From positions 1,331,501 through 1,395,500 of the forward strand of contig NC_013939.1 in assembly GCF_000010985.1 (NCBI RefSeq): a DNA stretch of 64,000 nt. The letters run 5' to 3'. Positions within the stretch are counted from its first letter, which is position 1, and every line of letters begins with the position of its first letter. The notes under the pieces are model-generated. The model did no database searches. It was not told the origin of the DNA and was given only the letters and a program-made list of their open reading frames with translations. This document shows positions 7,121 to 30,260 of this stretch, in pieces. Origin of the DNA: Deferribacter desulfuricans SSM1 (GTDB lineage Bacteria > Chrysiogenota > Deferribacteres > Deferribacterales > Deferribacteraceae). The translations under genes were made by a program, and so were the position numbers.

Positions 7121-9904
7121 TTAAGCTTTTGTTATACGGCAAAGACCTGTTTTGGTCTCCTGCATTTGAGTAACAATATCATATCCATAGTTTGTAACAA
7201 CATTTGCAGCTTCACCTAAAGCATAAGGAGTTGTACCTTCAGGATATTTTCCTGCCCAACTATCACCCATGAAAAATCCACCAAAATGGAATGGTAAGAA
7301 AATTGTTTTATCATCAACTCTATCTGAAACTTTTGCCTTAACTTTTATTTTGCCTCCATTAGGTGATTCAATCCAGATCATATCCCCATCTCTTATGCCA
7401 TAATCGTTAGCTGTTTTGATATTTATTTCAGCAAACATTTCTGGTTGAAGTTCAGCTAAGTATTTATTACTCCTTGTTTCAGCACCACCACCCATGTACT
7501 CAACAAGTCTTCCAGTTGTAAGGATTAATGGATATCTTTTAACCCAATCAAGTTTCTGCTCGCTCTTATACTTCGTATAAACTCTGTAATGATCAGGTTT
7601 GTCATCATAAGTAGGATATTTTTTAATCATTTCTGGATCTGGTGAGTGAAGTGGCTCTCTATGTACAGGTATTGGATCAGGGAAGTTCCAAACATAACAT
7701 CTTGCTCTTGCATTTCCAAATGGTGCCATACCACGCTTAATAGCTTCCTTTATAGTTTTTTGGCTTAAATCAGTTTTCCAGTTTGTTCCTGGTACTATAC
7801 CTTTAAACTCTGGATAGCCGCCATTTACCTCACTACCAGGATTCGCCACACCATCTGCTGCAAGAAGATTTTCCATTTTGCCATTTGGATATTTATATTT
7901 TGTTCCAAATCTTGCTCTAAAAGGTAAACCACCTTTTGCAACAGGTTTTGATATATCATATAGTATTGGAGTACCTGGATGTTCTGTAGTCCAGCAAGGC
8001 CATGGCAAACCATAATATTCACCATCACAAGGCCCACCTTTTGCCTGCAATGTATTTACATCAAAAGTATGCCAATAATCAGTGTGCTTTTTAATCCTTT
8101 CTGGAGTTTGACCATTATAACCAATAGTGAGTGAACCTTTGTTAATTTCTCTTGTTATATCTTCTGGTATTTTCTTTATATTTTTAAAGAACTTATCATA
8201 AAAACCAAATCTTTTAACAAGCTCTTGCATAATCATATAATCATCTTTACACTCATGTACAGGATCAACTACTTTATATCTCCATTGAATTCCTCTTTGA
8301 GAATTAGTTATACTACCTTCAGTCTCGTATTGACTTGAAGATGGCAATAAATACACATTATCTTTATCGCTTGCAACTGCTGTCATAGTTGGAAAAGGAT
8401 CAATAATCACAACCAAATCAAGCAAATCAAGCGCTTTTTTCAGCTTATGATACTGAGATTGTGAGTTTGATGAACAACCCCAAAAAACAACTGCTTTTAA
8501 AGGAGTATACTGAGTAATCTTGTCTTCTTGAATTACACCTTCATACCACCTACCAAGTGTAAAACCTTTTTTATTCATATATTTTTTATTTTTAAATCTT
8601 GATTTTATCCATTCATAATCCACATCCCATACTCTACACCAATGTTTCCATGCTCCATCAGATAACCCATAATAAGCAGGTAAAGAGTGAGATAAAATAC
8701 ACATATCAGTGGCACCCTGTACATTATCATGCCCTCTAAGGATATTGGTACCACCACCAGATTTACCCATATTTCCAAGCACAAGCTGCAATATACAGTA
8801 AGCTCTAGTGTTGCTGCTACCAATAGAGTGCTGAGTACCACCCATACACCAGATAACAGTACCAGGTCTATTATCAGCTAGAAGTTTTGCAATTCTAACC
8901 ACTTCTTTAGCAGGAACGCCTGTAATCCTCTCCACCTCCTCAGGAGTATAATGTTTAGCCACCTCTTTTAACTCTTCAAAACCAGCAACACGAGTCCTAA
9001 CAAATTCTTTATCATACCAATCATTTTGAATAATTGCATTTATCAAACCCATAACAAAAGCTGTATCTGTACCAGAACGAATTCTCACATAATCGGTAGC
9101 TTTTGCAGCTGTCTTCGTAAATCTCGGATCAACAACTATAATTGGTGCGTTATTAACCTCTTTTGCATATAAAATATGCTGCATTGCTATTGGGTGAGCT
9201 TCTGCAGCATTTGAACCTATAAAGAATACACATTTTGAGTGCCTAATATCATTGATACTGTTTGTCATTGCACCATAACCCCAGGTGTTCGCCACACCCG
9301 CAACAGTTGTAGAATGACAAATTCTTGCCTGGTGATCTATATTGTTTGTCCCCCAAAATGCAGCAAGTTTTCTCTGCAAATAAGCCATTTCATTTGATAC
9401 TTTTGCACTCCCAATCCACATAACTGCATCAGGACCATCTTTTTTACGAATATCGAGCAGTTTTTTTGATACTTCATCCAAAGCTTGTTCCCAGCTTATT
9501 TTCTGCCACTTTCCATTGACCTTTTTTAATGGATATTTTAACCTTTTTGGGCTTGTTACCATATCTATTGCACCGGCACCTTTACAACAGTGCCCGCCCC
9601 TTGAAATAGGATGATCTTGAGCTATTTCCTGTCTTACCCATACACCATTTTGAACTTCAGCATAAATCCCGCAACCCACAGCACAATGGGTACAAATTGT
9701 CCTAACAATTTTTGAGTTTGGATATGGTTTGCTTGATGCGTTTGCCTTTTTAACAAAAGTTGGGGATAAAGACATACTTGCAAAAGCTGCAGTTGCCGCA
9801 GAAAGTTTTAAAAATGTTCTTCTTCCTATTTGCGTATTAATACCTAATTTTGCTGATTCACTTTTAGAACTTTTAATCACTTTTTTCACTTTATTAGCTG
9901 CCAT
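7121..9904 (-). CDS. fdhA: Formate dehydrogenase alpha subunit, molybdopterin/tungstopterin, Cys type
   Basis: The catalytic subunit that oxidises formate to CO2, exported folded by Tat. The 927 residues begin with a basic region, then [14 protein letters not shown] (twin arginines at 28-29) and a signal peptide. Next comes a [4Fe-4S] motif, C71-x2-C74-x3-C78 with C106/C107, and then the molybdopterin domains. The active-site segment reads [14 protein letters not shown], with Cys196 (codon TGT) next to His197, where the FdnG type has selenocysteine. So this is a selenium-independent enzyme. The C-terminal pterin-binding domain ends with [16 protein letters not shown] and later segments. It lies in the operon polyferredoxin - torD - tat - alpha - beta - gamma and starts after GGGAGG. 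Confidence 0.95.
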
Positions 9905-24062: not shown

Positions 24063-24221
24063 TCATCTTTTATAAATATAATCAATAAAACTACTAAACA
24101 CCTTAGCTAAAAAAAGATAAAACACAATAGCTAATCTCACCAATCTTGGTACAGGGAAAATAAAAGCCAATACCAAAACAAGATATCTCACAGACTTTTT
24201 TAAAAAATCAATAAAACTCAT
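24063..24221 (-). CDS. Membrane microprotein coupled to the FadR-type regulator, 52 aa
   Basis: The ATG overlaps the regulator's stop as ATGA (24218-24221), and the frame stays open for 52 codons. The product starts MSFIDFLKKSVRYLVLVLAF and is mostly hydrophobic, with an IFPVPRLVRL turn between two membrane segments and a basic end (YIYKR). It is not a recognised family. The stop-start overlap, the hydrophobic pattern and the lack of any competing frame support a real gene. Confidence 0.5.
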   Translation of the reverse strand: MSFIDFLKKSVRYLVLVLAFIFPVPRLVRLAIVFYLFLAKVFSSFIDYIYKR

Positions 24222-24940
24222 ACTTTCTTACTATCCTCATCAACTATAGCTTTTAATGAATCCATTACATAATTCATATGATTAAGCATAGCATTATATG
24301 CCTCTAATGGGTCTCTATTTTTTATTGCAGTAAAAATAGCTTTGTGCTGTTTGTATAACAGATCGTGTTTATAATAATCGTTATATAACCTTTTTCTCAC
24401 CTCATAAGAAATCTTTTCTATCCATTGATATATAGTGTTCATTATATGGATTAAAAAAATATTTTTTGTTGCATAACTTATTGTAGAATGAAAATCAGCA
24501 TCTGAATCATAACCTATCTGCCCACCTTTTAATGCATCTTCCATCTCAGCTAAATACTGCTCAAGCTGATTAATCTCTTTTTCTGTAATTCGTTCTGCAG
24601 CAGTATAGGCTGCCCATGTTTCCAAAATTTTTCTCACTTCCATTATATCTAAAATTGCATCCTTTTTATTCGCAGCATATTCTTCAAAAGCATTATCAAC
24701 TATCTCATCACCAAGCGATTTAACAAATGTCCCACCACCTTGCCTTTGCTCAAGCAACCCTTTTGCTTCTAATTTATTTATCGCCTCTCTTAATGTAGGC
24801 CTACTCACCCCCATCTGAGTAGCTAGCTCTCTTTCTGGAGGCAATTTATCCCCAGGCTTTAATTTCCCTTCGATAATTAACTCTTTAATCTGCTCAAAAA
24901 CCTCATCACTAATCCTTTTTGGTTTTATTTTACGAAACAT
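24218..24940 (-). CDS. FadR/GntR-family transcriptional regulator (FCD domain)
   Basis: A DNA-binding regulator of 240 residues. It has an N-terminal winged helix (about 1-75; LKPGDKLPPERELATQMGVSRPTLREAINKLEAKG is the classical GntR helix-turn-helix region, cited here in parts) and a C-terminal all-helical FCD ligand domain (about 85-230) with DADFHSTISYAT as part of the metal/ligand site. LldR, PdhR and GlcC belong to this group and bind TGGTNNNACCA-like sites. Two exact matches lie in the divergent promoter region at 27557-27567 and 27635-27645, so the likely ligand is lactate, glycolate or pyruvate. It overlaps the GlcF-type gene by 11 bp and the microprotein by 4 bp. Confidence 0.9.
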   Translation of the reverse strand: MFRKIKPKRISDEVFEQIKELIIEGKLKPGDKLPPERELATQMGVSRPTLREAINKLEAKGLLEQRQGGGTFVKSLGDEIVDNAFEEYAANKKDAILDIMEVRKILETWAAYTAAERITEKEINQLEQYLAEMEDALKGGQIGYDSDADFHSTISYATKNIFLIHIMNTIYQWIEKISYEVRKRLYNDYYKHDLLYKQHKAIFTAIKNRDPLEAYNAMLNHMNYVMDSLKAIVDEDSKKV

Positions 24941-26168
24941 ACTTTTCTATAACCTCATATATCTTTTCTATTGGATGCATCACAGAGCATTCAGCACCCA
25001 CATGCATCACACCATCAGTCAAATTCATAGCACAACCTGGACAAGGTGTAAACATTATCTTGATATCTTTCTTTTTTACTTCTTCCCCTTTATCTTTTGA
25101 AAATACTGTTGATTTATCATAATGCTTCAAATTAAAGGTTCCACCAAAACCACAGCAATTTTGATTTTCAAGAGGGGTAAAATTTGAAGATAGTTTTGAC
25201 GTAAAAGAGAATATATCATTTACCTGATCCCTATTGTAATGACAAGGGATATGAACTGTAACTTTATCGCTAATTATATTTTCAACCTTTACTTTTAATA
25301 CTCTTGATAAAAAAATTAAAATATCAACAAATTCAACATTTGGTAATTTTAAACCTAAGTTTATTCCCATATCAGCTAAAGAGTGATTGCAGGTAGGACA
25401 AGCCGTTATTACATAGTCCACATCATCTATACTTTTAAAATAATCATAATTTTTATTTAACAACTCTTTCATCATATCCTGCTTACCCATTGTGGCAGCA
25501 GGTATTCCACAACAATAATTAGTTTCAGGAACAATCACAGTTACACCAAGCTTATTTAAAACTTTGACAATTTTTTCTCCCCAATCAAAATAAATCATGT
25601 TAATAGCACAACCAGGATAAAAAATGACTTTCATCTTTTCATTATTTGCTTTATTTACCCCTCCATATTCCTTTGTAAAAAATCTCTTTTTTATCCCTTT
25701 CACATATCTATTTCCAAACCCTTCTAAAATAGGTTTATATATATCATCTTTTACCTTCTTAGTCCCTAGTTTAAAACCAACATGAAAAAGTGGTGCTAAG
25801 CTACTCATTAGATCTGGCTTACCAAGTAAAACTTTTAGTAGAAGTTTTTGATAAACAGGTAAGTCTGAAACTTTTCTTAGTGTTGATTTCCCCTTCAAAA
25901 AAATCTCAGTTGTTTTAACACCACTTGGACAATTAGTTTCACACCTACCACACAAAATACAGTAATCAAGATATTTCAAAATGTTATCCACATCCTCAAT
26001 TTTCCCTTCATAAATTGACTCAAGCAGTGTTATCTTCCCTCTTGCTACAGATCCTTCAAAAAAATCTTTCTGATAAAGTGGACAATAAGCCTGACATGTA
26101 CCACATTTCATACATTTAATAATTAAATCTTCTATCTGTTTTAACTCTTCAATTATCTTTTTCATCAT
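24930..26168 (-). CDS. glcF: GlcF-type iron-sulfur subunit of a lactate/glycolate dehydrogenase
   Basis: An Fe-S electron-transfer subunit of 412 residues. Two [4Fe-4S] ferredoxin motifs are at the N-terminus (CMKCGTCQAYCPLY and CILCGRCETNCPSG). Two CCG domains follow, with FYPGCAINMIYFD...YCCGIPAATMG and HIPCHYNRDQ...NCCGFGGTFNL, then TPCPGCAMNL. The layout matches GlcF and the C-terminal half of D-lactate dehydrogenase complexes. With the adjacent GlcD-type flavoprotein it should oxidise D-lactate or glycolate at the membrane. The start overlaps the glcD stop as ATGA. An ATG one codon further on is equally possible. Confidence 0.9.
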   Translation of the reverse strand: MMKKIIEELKQIEDLIIKCMKCGTCQAYCPLYQKDFFEGSVARGKITLLESIYEGKIEDVDNILKYLDYCILCGRCETNCPSGVKTTEIFLKGKSTLRKVSDLPVYQKLLLKVLLGKPDLMSSLAPLFHVGFKLGTKKVKDDIYKPILEGFGNRYVKGIKKRFFTKEYGGVNKANNEKMKVIFYPGCAINMIYFDWGEKIVKVLNKLGVTVIVPETNYCCGIPAATMGKQDMMKELLNKNYDYFKSIDDVDYVITACPTCNHSLADMGINLGLKLPNVEFVDILIFLSRVLKVKVENIISDKVTVHIPCHYNRDQVNDIFSFTSKLSSNFTPLENQNCCGFGGTFNLKHYDKSTVFSKDKGEEVKKKDIKIMFTPCPGCAMNLTDGVMHVGAECSVMHPIEKIYEVIEKYVS

Positions 26169-27535
26169 AACCCCATTTTATGTGGATTAAGCATATTGTT
26201 TGGATCTACACCATTTTTTAGTTTTTGCATAAAATTTAAAGTCCCCTTCCCTACTTCCATCTCCATGTATTTAGCTTTTAATAAACCAACTCCATGCTCA
26301 CCACTCAAAGTCCCCTCAAGCAAAATCGCTTTTTCAAAAATTTCATCAATTGCTTTTTCAACTCTTTGAAACTCTTCTTTATCCCTTTTATCTGTTAAAA
26401 TTGTTGGATGCAAATTTCCATCACCTGCATGGCCAAAAGTACCAATTGTGATGTCATATTTCTTAGAAATATCCTGAATCGCCTTCATCATTTCTGGTAT
26501 TTTGCTTCTCGGCACAGTTGCATCTTCTAAAATCAAAGTGGGTTTTAGCCTTGCAAGGCAGCTTAAAGCCTTTCTTCTTGCAGTCCATAGTTTGTCCCTT
26601 TCAGCACTATTTGCAGCAACCTTAACTCTACCATTATTTTTTTCACAGATTTTTTTAACTAACAAGTAGTCATCTTCAACAACAGCAGGATGCCCATCTA
26701 CCTCTATTAGTAGCAGCGCATCAGCATTTATTGGTAAATCAATCTTTTCAGAATCTTCAACAGCTCTAATAGTAAAATTATCGAGCAGTTCAAGAGTAGA
26801 CGGGAGTATTTTAGAAGCAATAATTTCTGATACCGTATTACAAGCATCTAAAATCGAGTCATACTCTACAAGTAGCGATTTAGCAGCTTTAGGCTTTGGT
26901 ACCAATTTTAAAACAACTTCATAGATAATACCCAACAACCCTTCAGAGCCAACCATTAATCCTGGAATATTAAAGCCAGTAACAAGTTTAACAGTTTTCC
27001 CTCCACCTTTAACATCGTTTCCCTCTATATCAAACAGTCTTACCCCCATAACATAATCTTTTGTAACACCATACTTTAGCCCCCTCAATCCACCAGCATT
27101 TTCAGCTATATTTCCACCAATCGTAGAAATATTCATACTACCAGGATCAGGTGGATAAAAAAGCCCTCTCTTTTCCACTTCATCAGCAAGTTGCTTTGTA
27201 ACAACTCCTGCTTCCACAACAGCATATAAATCGTTTTCATTTATCTCTAATATTTTATTCATTTTCGTCATAACAATCACACACCCACCTGCAACAGGAA
27301 CAGTGCCTCCACTAAGATTTGTCCCTGCTCCCCTTGTAACAACAGGAATATTATTTTCATTCATTAACCTGATAACATAGCCAAGCTCATCTTTTGTTTT
27401 TGGAAACACAACAACATCTGGCAAAATCTTCTCACCAAAGGCTGCATCATAACTAAAAAGCGCCCTATCAGCCTCATTTGTCAAAACATTCTCTTCTCCA
27501 AGTTTCCTTTTCAACTCTTTAAAAACTGTTTTCAT
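26165..27535 (-). CDS. glcD: GlcD-type FAD-linked D-lactate/glycolate dehydrogenase
   Basis: The flavin subunit, 456 residues. It has an N-terminal PCMH-type FAD domain (about 35-215) with VVTRGAGTNLSGGTVPVAGG and PDPGSMNISTIGGNIAENAG, then a C-terminal FAD-oxidase domain with GTFGHAGDGNLHPTI and LSGEHGVGLLKAKYM, both typical of GlcD and DLD enzymes. The next gene encodes the matching Fe-S subunit. The substrate is either D-lactate or glycolate; the nearby LUD-type lactate system and the operator type favour lactate. Expression starts from a good promoter (27596-27568) whose start region is covered by an operator. The ribosome site GAGGTG lies 4 nt before the ATG. Confidence 0.92.
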   Translation of the reverse strand: MKTVFKELKRKLGEENVLTNEADRALFSYDAAFGEKILPDVVVFPKTKDELGYVIRLMNENNIPVVTRGAGTNLSGGTVPVAGGCVIVMTKMNKILEINENDLYAVVEAGVVTKQLADEVEKRGLFYPPDPGSMNISTIGGNIAENAGGLRGLKYGVTKDYVMGVRLFDIEGNDVKGGGKTVKLVTGFNIPGLMVGSEGLLGIIYEVVLKLVPKPKAAKSLLVEYDSILDACNTVSEIIASKILPSTLELLDNFTIRAVEDSEKIDLPINADALLLIEVDGHPAVVEDDYLLVKKICEKNNGRVKVAANSAERDKLWTARRKALSCLARLKPTLILEDATVPRSKIPEMMKAIQDISKKYDITIGTFGHAGDGNLHPTILTDKRDKEEFQRVEKAIDEIFEKAILLEGTLSGEHGVGLLKAKYMEMEVGKGTLNFMQKLKNGVDPNNMLNPHKMGL

Positions 27536-27556
27536 AAAACACCTCTATTAACTAAT

Positions 27557-27567
27557 TGGTATTACCA
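27557..27567. promoter_or_regulatory. Operator 1, TGGTATTACCA
   Basis: Exact TGGTNNNACCA within the longer palindrome ATTGGT-ATT-ACCAAT. It adjoins the minus-strand -10 (27573-27568) and covers the predicted start site of the glcD operon. This is the site type of the FadR/GntR-group regulators. Confidence 0.75.
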
Positions 27568-27596
27568 ATTATCAACTAAACTCTACAAGCTGTCAA
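27568..27596 (-). promoter_or_regulatory. Promoter of the glcD-glcF-regulator operon
   Basis: Minus strand: TTGACA (27596-27591), a 17-bp spacer, GATAAT (27573-27568). It is near consensus and operator 1 follows at once. Confidence 0.8.
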
Positions 27597-27606
27597 CAGA
27601 AAAATA

Positions 27607-27635
27607 TTGACATTTTAAAAAGCAGAAAATAACAT
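27607..27635 (+). promoter_or_regulatory. Promoter of the lutC-lutBA operon
   Basis: TTGACA (27607-27612), a 17-bp spacer, TAACAT (27630-27635). Operator 2 begins at the last base of the -10. Confidence 0.8.
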
Positions 27636-27645
27636 GGTCTTACCA
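27635..27645. promoter_or_regulatory. Operator 2, TGGTCTTACCA
   Basis: A second exact TGGTNNNACCA. It lies between the -10 and the ribosome site of lutC, over the predicted start point. Its position mirrors operator 1 on the opposite promoter. Confidence 0.75.
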
Positions 27646-27659
27646 TTTTGGAGGTTATT

Positions 27660-28124
27660 ATGCTAAATGATTTTATTAAGCAATCTGAACTGGTTGGGAA
27701 CAAAAATGAAGTTTTAGATTTTGATAGTATGAAAAAATATTTGGATAATAACGACTATGAATTTATCTTTCTCCCTTCCTTTAAATTAGAAAAGGTTATT
27801 GATATAGGCAAAGAAGGGATCAGTTCTGCAATAGTGGAAGCTGATTATGGGATTGCTGAAACAGGAACAGTGGTTATAGATTCTAAAGATATTTTACTTA
27901 GAAAAGCTACATGTTTGGCTGAAAAATTGGATATTATCCTTTTTAAATCAAAAATTCTAAAAAAATTGGAAGATATCTCATCATTTCTAAAAGAAAAAAC
28001 GGAAAATGATGGATACGTAGCATTTATCACTGGAGCAAGTAGAACAGCTGATATAGAAAGAGTTCTCACAATCGGTGTTCACGGCCCTTGCGAAACAAAT
28101 ATATTTATCATTGAAGACAAATAG
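27660..28124 (+). CDS. lutC: LUD-domain lactate utilisation protein LutC/LldG
   Basis: A 154-residue protein of the LUD (LutC/YkgG) family, one of three components of the LutABC L-lactate dehydrogenase complex. Recognisable segments are VEADYGIAETGTVVID and the C-terminal ITGASRTADIERVLTIGVHG, which is the family signature near GASRTADIE. It is cytoplasmic, with no signal. The ATG at 27660 follows GGAGG at 6 nt; a TTG at 27648 would begin within that site. The gene is followed after 9 nt by the fused LutB-LutA gene and is controlled by operator 2. Confidence 0.9.
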   Translation: MLNDFIKQSELVGNKNEVLDFDSMKKYLDNNDYEFIFLPSFKLEKVIDIGKEGISSAIVEADYGIAETGTVVIDSKDILLRKATCLAEKLDIILFKSKILKKLEDISSFLKEKTENDGYVAFITGASRTADIERVLTIGVHGPCETNIFIIEDK

Positions 28125-28133
28125 GAGCTACCT

Positions 28134-30260
28134 ATGTTAAAACAATTAATAAGAGAAAAAATAAACGATAAAATATTATCGGAAAACCTTAAGATTTTTG
28201 CCGAAAACTACAAAATTTCAAAGGAAAATGCATTTACTGGGCTAAATTTTGAAAAAATAAGAGCAAAAATTAATGACTTAAAAAACTTTGATTATGATGA
28301 TATTATCAAACTTTATCATAAATTTAAAGAAACTGCTATAAATAAAGGTTGTCATGTTTTCGAAGCTACTAATGCTAATGAAGCTAACAAATACATTTTA
28401 GAAATTTGTAAAAAACACAACTCACAATATGTTGTAAAATCTAAAAGCATGACTTCTGAAGAAATAAAATTAAATGAATTTTTAGAAAAAAATGGAATAA
28501 CCCCAATAGAAACTGATCTTGGAGAATGGATTTTACAGCTTGCTCATGAAACACCAAGCCACATGGTCATGCCAGCAATACATAAAAGCAGAAAACAGGT
28601 GGCAAAGCTTTTTGAAAAGGTTACAGGGAATAAAATTGATCCAGATAACATAGAAGATATGGTTAAAATAGCAAGAAAAGAGCTTAGAGATTATTACTTT
28701 AAAGCTAAAGTGGGAATAACTGGTGCAAATGTAGCTATCGCTGAAACTGCTACAATAGGTATTGTTACCAACGAAGGTAATGCAAGACTTACAACTACAA
28801 TCCCAGATGTACATATTGTCGTTCTTGGTTATGAAAAGCTTGTTAAAACTTTTAAAGATGCTCTTCAAATTATTAGAGCGTTACCAAAAAGTGCTACAGG
28901 GCAAATTATCAGCACTTATGTAACCTGGATTTCTGGTAGCTATCCAATTGATAGTAATAAAAACAAAGAAGTACACTTTGTATTTCTGGACAACGGTAGA
29001 CTCTCTATTTTTAAAAATGAAAATTTAAAAGAAGCATTAAAGTGCATCAGATGTGGAAGCTGTGCAAATGTATGCCCCGTTTATGAAAAAGTTGGTGGTC
29101 ATGTCTTTGGTGATACCTATGTAGGGGCAATAGGGCTTATTTTGACATCCTTTTATGGAGATGAAAAGAAAGCAAATGAAATTTTAAAACTGTGTATAGG
29201 GTGTAGAACTTGCTCTGAAAACTGCCCTGCTGGTATAGATCTTCAAAGTTTAATCTCTGATATTAATGCTACTATTTCACCTAAATATGGAATCGGTTTT
29301 CCTAAAAATCTTGTTTACTCAAAAATAATGCCAAATCCAGAAATTTTTAAAACTGTAACTTTTATGGGGAAATATCTTCAAAAACCTATTGTCAAAAATA
29401 ACAAAATCGAAAAAATCCCATTCACACCTAAAGAAAAAAATTTTAGAGTGCTTCCTTCCATAGCAAAGAAAAGTTTTTCACAACTTTATAATGAGTATTT
29501 TAAAAAGGTATCGAATAAAAAATATAAAAAATCTGCAATATTTTATTCTGGATGTGCAATCGAATATTTTTATCCTGAAATAGGTTTATCTTTGATTAAA
29601 CTTCTGGATAGAGCTGGTATTAAAATAAAAGTTCCAGAAAAGATGGTATGTTGCGGTCTTCCTGCAATACATGCTGGCGATGGTATAAACGGACAAAAAA
29701 CAATAATTAAAAATCTTGCCTATTTTGATGATAATATTCACGAAGATATTATTACCCTGTGCCCAAGCTGTGGTATGGCTATTAAGGATGAATTTCCTAA
29801 ATATACCAAAACATCACCTAAAGATTTTGAAAAAAGTATAAAAATAGGTGAAAAAGTAAAATCACTTTCACAGTTTTTGCACGAAAACAATTTAAAACTT
29901 GTTTATACTGCAAAATACAAGGTCACTTATCATACCCCTTGTCATCAAAAAAGGGGGTTATGTTTTTCTACAGAACAATTCTTAAAAGATATCCTAACAG
30001 ATTATTTTATCCCATTAAAAGATTCTGATAAATGCTGCGGTTTTGGTGGTTCATTCTCCTTTGATTATCCAGAAATTTCAAGCAAGATATTACAAGATAA
30101 AATAGATAATATTAAAGATACAAAAGCAGAAATCGTGGTTACTGATTGCCCAGGATGTATTATGCAAATTGAAGGTGGTATCAAAAAACAAAATTTAAAT
30201 ATAAGAGTCTTACACCTTAGCGAATTTATACAGCAATATGTAAAAATAGAAAAAAGCTAA
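28134..30260 (+). CDS. Fused LutB-LutA (LldF-LldE) lactate oxidation iron-sulfur protein
   Basis: 708 residues. Residues about 1-310 are a LUD domain of the LutB/LldF type (NVAIAETATIGIVTNEGNARL, RALPKSATGQIISTYVTWI). Two ferredoxin motifs follow (CIRCGSCANVCPVY and CIGCRTCSENCPAG, about 302-365). From about 460 there are two CCG domains as in LutA/LldE (FYSGCAIEYFYPE, CCGLPAIHAGDG, YHTPCHQKRG, KCCGFGGSFSFDYPE, TDCPGCIMQIEGG). In Bacillus and Shewanella LutA and LutB are separate proteins, so this is a natural fusion. With LutC it should oxidise L-lactate to pyruvate, passing electrons to the respiratory chain. It is followed by a terminator hairpin shared with tpx. Confidence 0.9.
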   Translation: MLKQLIREKINDKILSENLKIFAENYKISKENAFTGLNFEKIRAKINDLKNFDYDDIIKLYHKFKETAINKGCHVFEATNANEANKYILEICKKHNSQYVVKSKSMTSEEIKLNEFLEKNGITPIETDLGEWILQLAHETPSHMVMPAIHKSRKQVAKLFEKVTGNKIDPDNIEDMVKIARKELRDYYFKAKVGITGANVAIAETATIGIVTNEGNARLTTTIPDVHIVVLGYEKLVKTFKDALQIIRALPKSATGQIISTYVTWISGSYPIDSNKNKEVHFVFLDNGRLSIFKNENLKEALKCIRCGSCANVCPVYEKVGGHVFGDTYVGAIGLILTSFYGDEKKANEILKLCIGCRTCSENCPAGIDLQSLISDINATISPKYGIGFPKNLVYSKIMPNPEIFKTVTFMGKYLQKPIVKNNKIEKIPFTPKEKNFRVLPSIAKKSFSQLYNEYFKKVSNKKYKKSAIFYSGCAIEYFYPEIGLSLIKLLDRAGIKIKVPEKMVCCGLPAIHAGDGINGQKTIIKNLAYFDDNIHEDIITLCPSCGMAIKDEFPKYTKTSPKDFEKSIKIGEKVKSLSQFLHENNLKLVYTAKYKVTYHTPCHQKRGLCFSTEQFLKDILTDYFIPLKDSDKCCGFGGSFSFDYPEISSKILQDKIDNIKDTKAEIVVTDCPGCIMQIEGGIKKQNLNIRVLHLSEFIQQYVKIEKS

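Follow-up and report, generated by a model that had tools for sequence, protein, structure and literature searches.

Organization of the divergent lactate oxidation operons

A 124-bp intergenic gap, at positions 27536-27659 of the window (the whole stretch of 64,000 nucleotides of Deferribacter desulfuricans SSM1 that was analyzed), separates a glcD-like gene on the minus strand from lutC on the plus strand. The minus operon begins with the gene for a GlcD/Dld-II-A-like FAD subunit (26165..27535; Pfam FAD_binding_4 and FAD-oxidase_C), followed by that for a GlcF/Dld-II-B-like iron-sulfur CCG subunit (24930..26168; Pfam CCG and Fer4_8) and, as the third gene, a GntR/FCD regulator of 240 amino acids resembling LldR and PdhR (24218..24940; Pfam GntR and FCD). 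The plus operon consists of lutC, encoding a LutC/LldG-like LUD protein with an ATG start at 27660 (27660..28124; Pfam LUD_dom, 67 bits), and ldhH, encoding the fused LutA/LutB-type large subunit of an L-lactate dehydrogenase (quinone) (28134..30260). LdhH scored 948.7 bits against NCBIfam NF045670, above the cut-off of 800, and lutC-ldhH is predicted to encode a quinone-linked L-lactate dehydrogenase. The GlcD-like subunit scored 525.5 bits against TIGR00387 (GlcD), under the cut-off of 567.9, and by analogy with DVU3027 (PMC4481167) it fits a D-2-hydroxyacid (D-lactate) dehydrogenase; the glcDF-like pair likewise resembles a D-lactate dehydrogenase. Mutants of Desulfovibrio vulgaris have identified DVU3027-28 as the D-lactate dehydrogenase and DVU3032-33 as the L-lactate dehydrogenase (PMC4481167). 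Since these pairs have the same domain make-up as those described here, one switch serving both lactate enantiomers appears the likeliest arrangement.

Promoters and operators in the intergenic region

The original prediction had placed two outward sigma70-type promoters in this gap, each with an exact palindrome at its start site and with the operator centers 78 bp apart, and all of these elements were found where they had been claimed. The promoter of the glcD operon, TTGACA-17-GATAAT (27568..27596, minus strand), matches the consensus at 11/12 positions, with the -35 box at 27596-27591 and the -10 box at 27573-27568. The promoter of the lutC-ldhH operon, TTGACA-17-TAACAT (27607..27635, plus strand), matches at 10/12 positions, with the -35 box at 27607-27612 and the -10 box at 27630-27635. 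The -35 boxes are 10 bp apart, and in a scan of 2.2 kb that yielded 16 promoter-like sites, the two promoters rank first and joint second. Shine-Dalgarno-like sequences precede both first genes, GGAGG at 27650-27654 before lutC and AGAGGT before glcD.

Both predicted operators are exact matches to TGGTNNNACCA. The minus-side operator, TGGTATTACCA (27557..27567), directly follows the minus -10 box, spans the predicted start and lies at the center of a perfect palindrome of 17 bp, AATTGGTATTACCAATT. The plus-side operator, TGGTCTTACCA (27635..27645), overlaps the last base of the plus -10 box as well as the predicted start, and its pairing extends over 13 bp (ATGGT-CTT-ACCAT). Placed at the usual 6-7 bp past the -10 box, the starts are predicted near 27561 (minus) and 27642 (plus), 81 bp apart and both within the operators.

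Frequency of the operator in the genome

Three exact TGGTNNNACCA sites were observed in the window against 0.51 expected, a number reached in 1 of 100 shuffles, and two of the three fall inside the 124-bp gap. The whole genome (2.54 Mb) contains 42 exact sites, compared with 18 for the reversed control pattern, and 39 of the 42 are located inside open reading frames. So many sites, nearly all of them intragenic, would be compatible with the palindromes being chance or coding-type matches without function. However, the pair at the present locus accounts for two of only three intergenic sites, and the position of the site is conserved in every genome that bears the regulator, which already contradicts a chance origin and leaves it with next to no probability. 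In the search for a wider regulon, the sole other intergenic exact site (L081), situated 21 bp past the end of one ORF and 185 bp before the next start, was unconvincing. By exact sites, the regulon at the sequence level is clean and comprises one locus in the genome.

Conservation of the control region across the phylum

Orthologs of the regulator (55-86% identity) were found in 20 relatives, giving, with the present one, 21 genomes from six families of the phylum. An exact TGGTNNNACCA is present 25-55 nt upstream of lutC in 21/21 of these genomes. A TTGAC box lies 28-32 nt ahead of the lutC-side operator in the sequences inspected of the regulator-bearing genomes, including L061 and L062, where the automatic promoter pick differs and visual inspection showed the box at 28 and 30 nt. 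TTGACA also occurs ahead of the minus-side operator in many relatives. Eight genomes belonging to two other families possess LdhH/LutC-like genes without an ortholog of the regulator, and in the 400 bp upstream of lutC no site was found in any of the eight, five of which keep the same gene order. With only those five negatives counted, a split this complete would arise by chance with a probability of 1 in 65,780 (3.4e-6 for a count of six), a figure to be read with the relatedness of the 21 genomes, which are not independent, and the 64% completeness of one negative (G012) in mind.

The minus-side operator precedes whichever gene comes first in the operon, be it glcD, a TRAP dctP, an L-lactate permease gene (PF02652) or the regulator gene itself; the four genomes L055-L058, all of one family, gave no exact match to it. 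In G002, G009, G016, and G022, lutC is divergent from the regulator gene itself, on whose side a second site, with one mismatch, is present. In G049, lutC-ldhH is located on another contig than the regulator gene and the site is still present, which suggests control in trans.

Three genomes of one genus (L066, L067, and L068, at about 7850-8890) have an additional regulator copy that is 55-57% identical; neither lactate genes nor an exact operator were observed close to it. A contig search with the regulator added little, giving a single close record besides several distant matches. A TRAP-glcD-glcF-regulator operon that has the same operator is found in a record under the name Desulfothermus okinawensis JCM 13304 (L130:1-6704), by this name a member of another phylum; the regulator in it is about 86% identical, and several frames are broken. 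The record could reflect either horizontal gene transfer among vent bacteria or a draft that is mislabelled or contaminated.

The FadR-type regulator as the predicted binder

The DNA-binding domain of the regulator is identical to that of PdhR (5kvr) at 46/72 positions (64%). The protein belongs to the FadR (FCD) subfamily of the GntR superfamily, with 92 bits for PF00392 (cut-off 27) and 91 bits for PF07729 (cut-off 24.3). The recognition arginines R37, R47, and R51, which we take to correspond by position to the FadR contacts Arg35, Arg45, and Arg49, are invariant in 21/21 orthologs. In such proteins, the Arg-G contact is made by the recognition helix (PMC4494728). Similarly, the residues R103, D147, H151, H199, and H221 of the FCD pocket are invariant in 21/21 orthologs, and LldR possesses an equivalent Arg/Asp/His/His/His set (PMC9600882); the pocket thus presents the predicted set of metal- and ligand-binding residues. 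The regulator scored 180.8 bits against the LldR equivalog NF007741 (cut-off 311) and 178.9 bits against the PdhR equivalog NF007001 (cut-off 330). The score below the LldR cut-off does not exclude an LldR-like function, and, as expected of an LldR, an TGGTNNNACCA operator stands at lactate oxidation genes.

Sites of the TGGTNNNACCA type are common to relatives of LldR, PdhR, and GlcC, and the present genome has five further matches to the GntR family, both of which would suit another FadR-family regulator, a sensor of pyruvate or glycolate, as the true binder, the linked gene being incidental. However, the site follows the ortholog of the present regulator, whereas other GntR genes occur also in genomes that lack the site, and in nearly all genomes the regulator gene is part of the operon, its neighbor or its divergent partner; a binder encoded elsewhere is therefore considered very unlikely. 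The original prediction that the FadR-type regulator of the glcD operon binds both sites and coordinates the two operons is supported by this tracking of operator and regulator across the phylum (21/21 genomes with the ortholog vs. 0/8 without). Its further proposal of autoregulation gains support from the four genomes in which the regulator gene, with its one-mismatch site, faces lutC.

Spacing of the two operators

It had also been suggested that the 78-bp distance would permit looping on the same face of the helix. This did not hold, as 78/10.5 corresponds to 7.43 turns, placing the operators on roughly opposite faces of standard B-DNA. Looping has been proposed for lldPRD of E. coli, and the presence of two operators, one on each promoter, would allow one regulator tetramer to bridge the 78 bp between them and form a repression loop; if the helical repeat were close to 11 bp, the distance would amount to 7.1 turns and the sites would be aligned. 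Across the genomes, however, the separations are 78, 98, 98, 100, 101, 101, 116, 178, 196, 204, 204, 211, 212, 238, and 1541 bp, with 289 bp in a further genome, and they share no common phase (Rayleigh p 0.27-0.58). The separation rises with intergenic length (12 divergons; r = 0.84, p = 6e-4), and in four regulator-bearing genomes the lutC operator is the sole exact site. In divergons of the FadR subfamily, a distance growing with intergenic length goes with independent operators, one per operon (PMC4494728). As the spacing is off-phase, variable and dependent on intergenic length, looping is not supported, and a bridging tetramer appears very unlikely.

The largest separation (1541 bp) belongs to a relative in which a DDE transposase gene is located between the operators (L048:11404-12654), both of which are intact.

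Proposed mode of regulation

The operators, the promoter elements, the gene content, the phylum-wide linkage to the regulator and the conserved contact and ligand residues are all read directly from the sequences. We consider it highly probable (roughly 0.88) that a regulator dimer occupies one TGGTNNNACCA operator at each promoter, is released by a 2-hydroxy or 2-oxo acid and controls the two operons independently. From the position of each operator, at the downstream edge of the -10 box and over the predicted start, a dimer bound to the -10/+1 region should exclude RNA polymerase. Release of the regulator would follow from a 2-hydroxy or 2-oxo acid entering the metal-containing FCD pocket. 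L- or D-lactate would be the most likely ligand, with pyruvate or glycolate as possible ones; the nearly equal LldR and PdhR scores, both under their cut-offs, count against naming lactate. Release would switch on the glcD/glcF-type pair, lutC-ldhH and the regulator itself, which, being encoded by the third gene of the minus operon, would be autoregulated. Each operator would work independently, one per operon. Binding, repression rather than activation, and the identity of the ligand are what we infer from these features; the repressor sign in particular is deduced from operator position and is not certain, since LldR of E. coli is reported to act as an activator, namely of lldPRD and glcDEFGBA (PMC10272880).

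Absence of a transporter from the predicted regulon

In the present genome, glcD directly follows the minus-side operator. In a congener (G001), a TRAP transporter (DctP, DctQ, and DctM; Pfam) comes first on the minus side. In that locus (L046:9592-12561), dctPQM is located between the operator and glcD, and it is absent at this place in D. desulfuricans. TRAP transporter genes were detected there by tblastn in G003 and G019 also, and G049 has reading frames with TRAP-like sizes and starts at the same place. An L-lactate permease (PF02652) takes the first position of the minus operon in G048, and G050 has a similar reading frame there. No lactate permease of the LctP family (PF02652) was found in the present genome, and the search for a further site at a lactate permease gene, as had been suggested, accordingly gave no match. 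As candidate orthologs of the TRAP transporter of the congener, the best DctM and DctP matches (43% and 39% identical) were rejected, being located at separate loci; no exact operator was found in the stretches examined around the TRAP paralogs. The predicted regulon of the present genome thus contains no transporter, unlike that of the congener.

Lactate is a listed substrate of D. thermophilus and D. autotrophicus and not of D. desulfuricans (PMC13186404), and the missing transporter may be linked with the missing growth on lactate. The compactness of the region and the absence of a transporter could also indicate that the promoters for D- and L-lactate oxidation compete for polymerase and that the regulon serves 2-hydroxy acids produced inside the cell, not imported lactate, a suggestion that we regard as unlikely.

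Comparison with known systems

The region is a real, conserved and well-formed control region of the well-known LldR/PdhR type, ordinary in kind, whose design is conserved across the host phylum. With it, the known range of the LldR-type lactate switch comes to include a deep-branching phylum, as regards operator and regulator as well as promoter geometry, and a clean sequence-level regulon is provided that can be transferred by annotation. Although the gene that opens the minus operon varies among glcD, a TRAP transporter, lactate permease, and the regulator, the operator has stayed the same. The current understanding of such switches is unchanged.

FadR-subfamily divergons with separate double sites (PMC4494728), in which the distance grows with the intergenic region, show no relevant difference from the present arrangement. 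The sequence TGGTNNNACCA is the LldR consensus derived from A. woodii, C. glutamicum, and P. aeruginosa (PMC9600882), and the LldR box of E. coli is AAnTGGTCnGACCAnTT (PMC10272880); the region between glcD and glcC is likewise bound by LldR in E. coli (PMC10272880). The LldR regulons of E. coli, P. aeruginosa, C. glutamicum, and A. woodii share with the present one a GntR/FCD regulator beside lactate oxidation genes and an TGGTNNNACCA operator. In contrast to them, two divergent operons, one for a D-type and one for an L-type enzyme, each have one start-site operator here, no permease belongs to the regulon, and the regulator falls under the LldR equivalog cut-off. PdhR has an operator similar to the present one, in addition to the 64% identical DNA-binding domain, and the regulator scores nearly equally against the HMMs of PdhR and LldR; however, the targets here are lactate oxidation genes and not aceEF-lpd. 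The luo operon of D. vulgaris (DVU3025-3033) contains the same kind of enzyme pairs, DVU3027-28 (GlcD and an Fe-S protein) and DVU3032-33 (LutC-like and fused LdhH). It is a single operon under the sigma54-dependent LurR (PMC6456213), whereas the Deferribacter operons are divergent and predicted to be governed by a GntR regulator.
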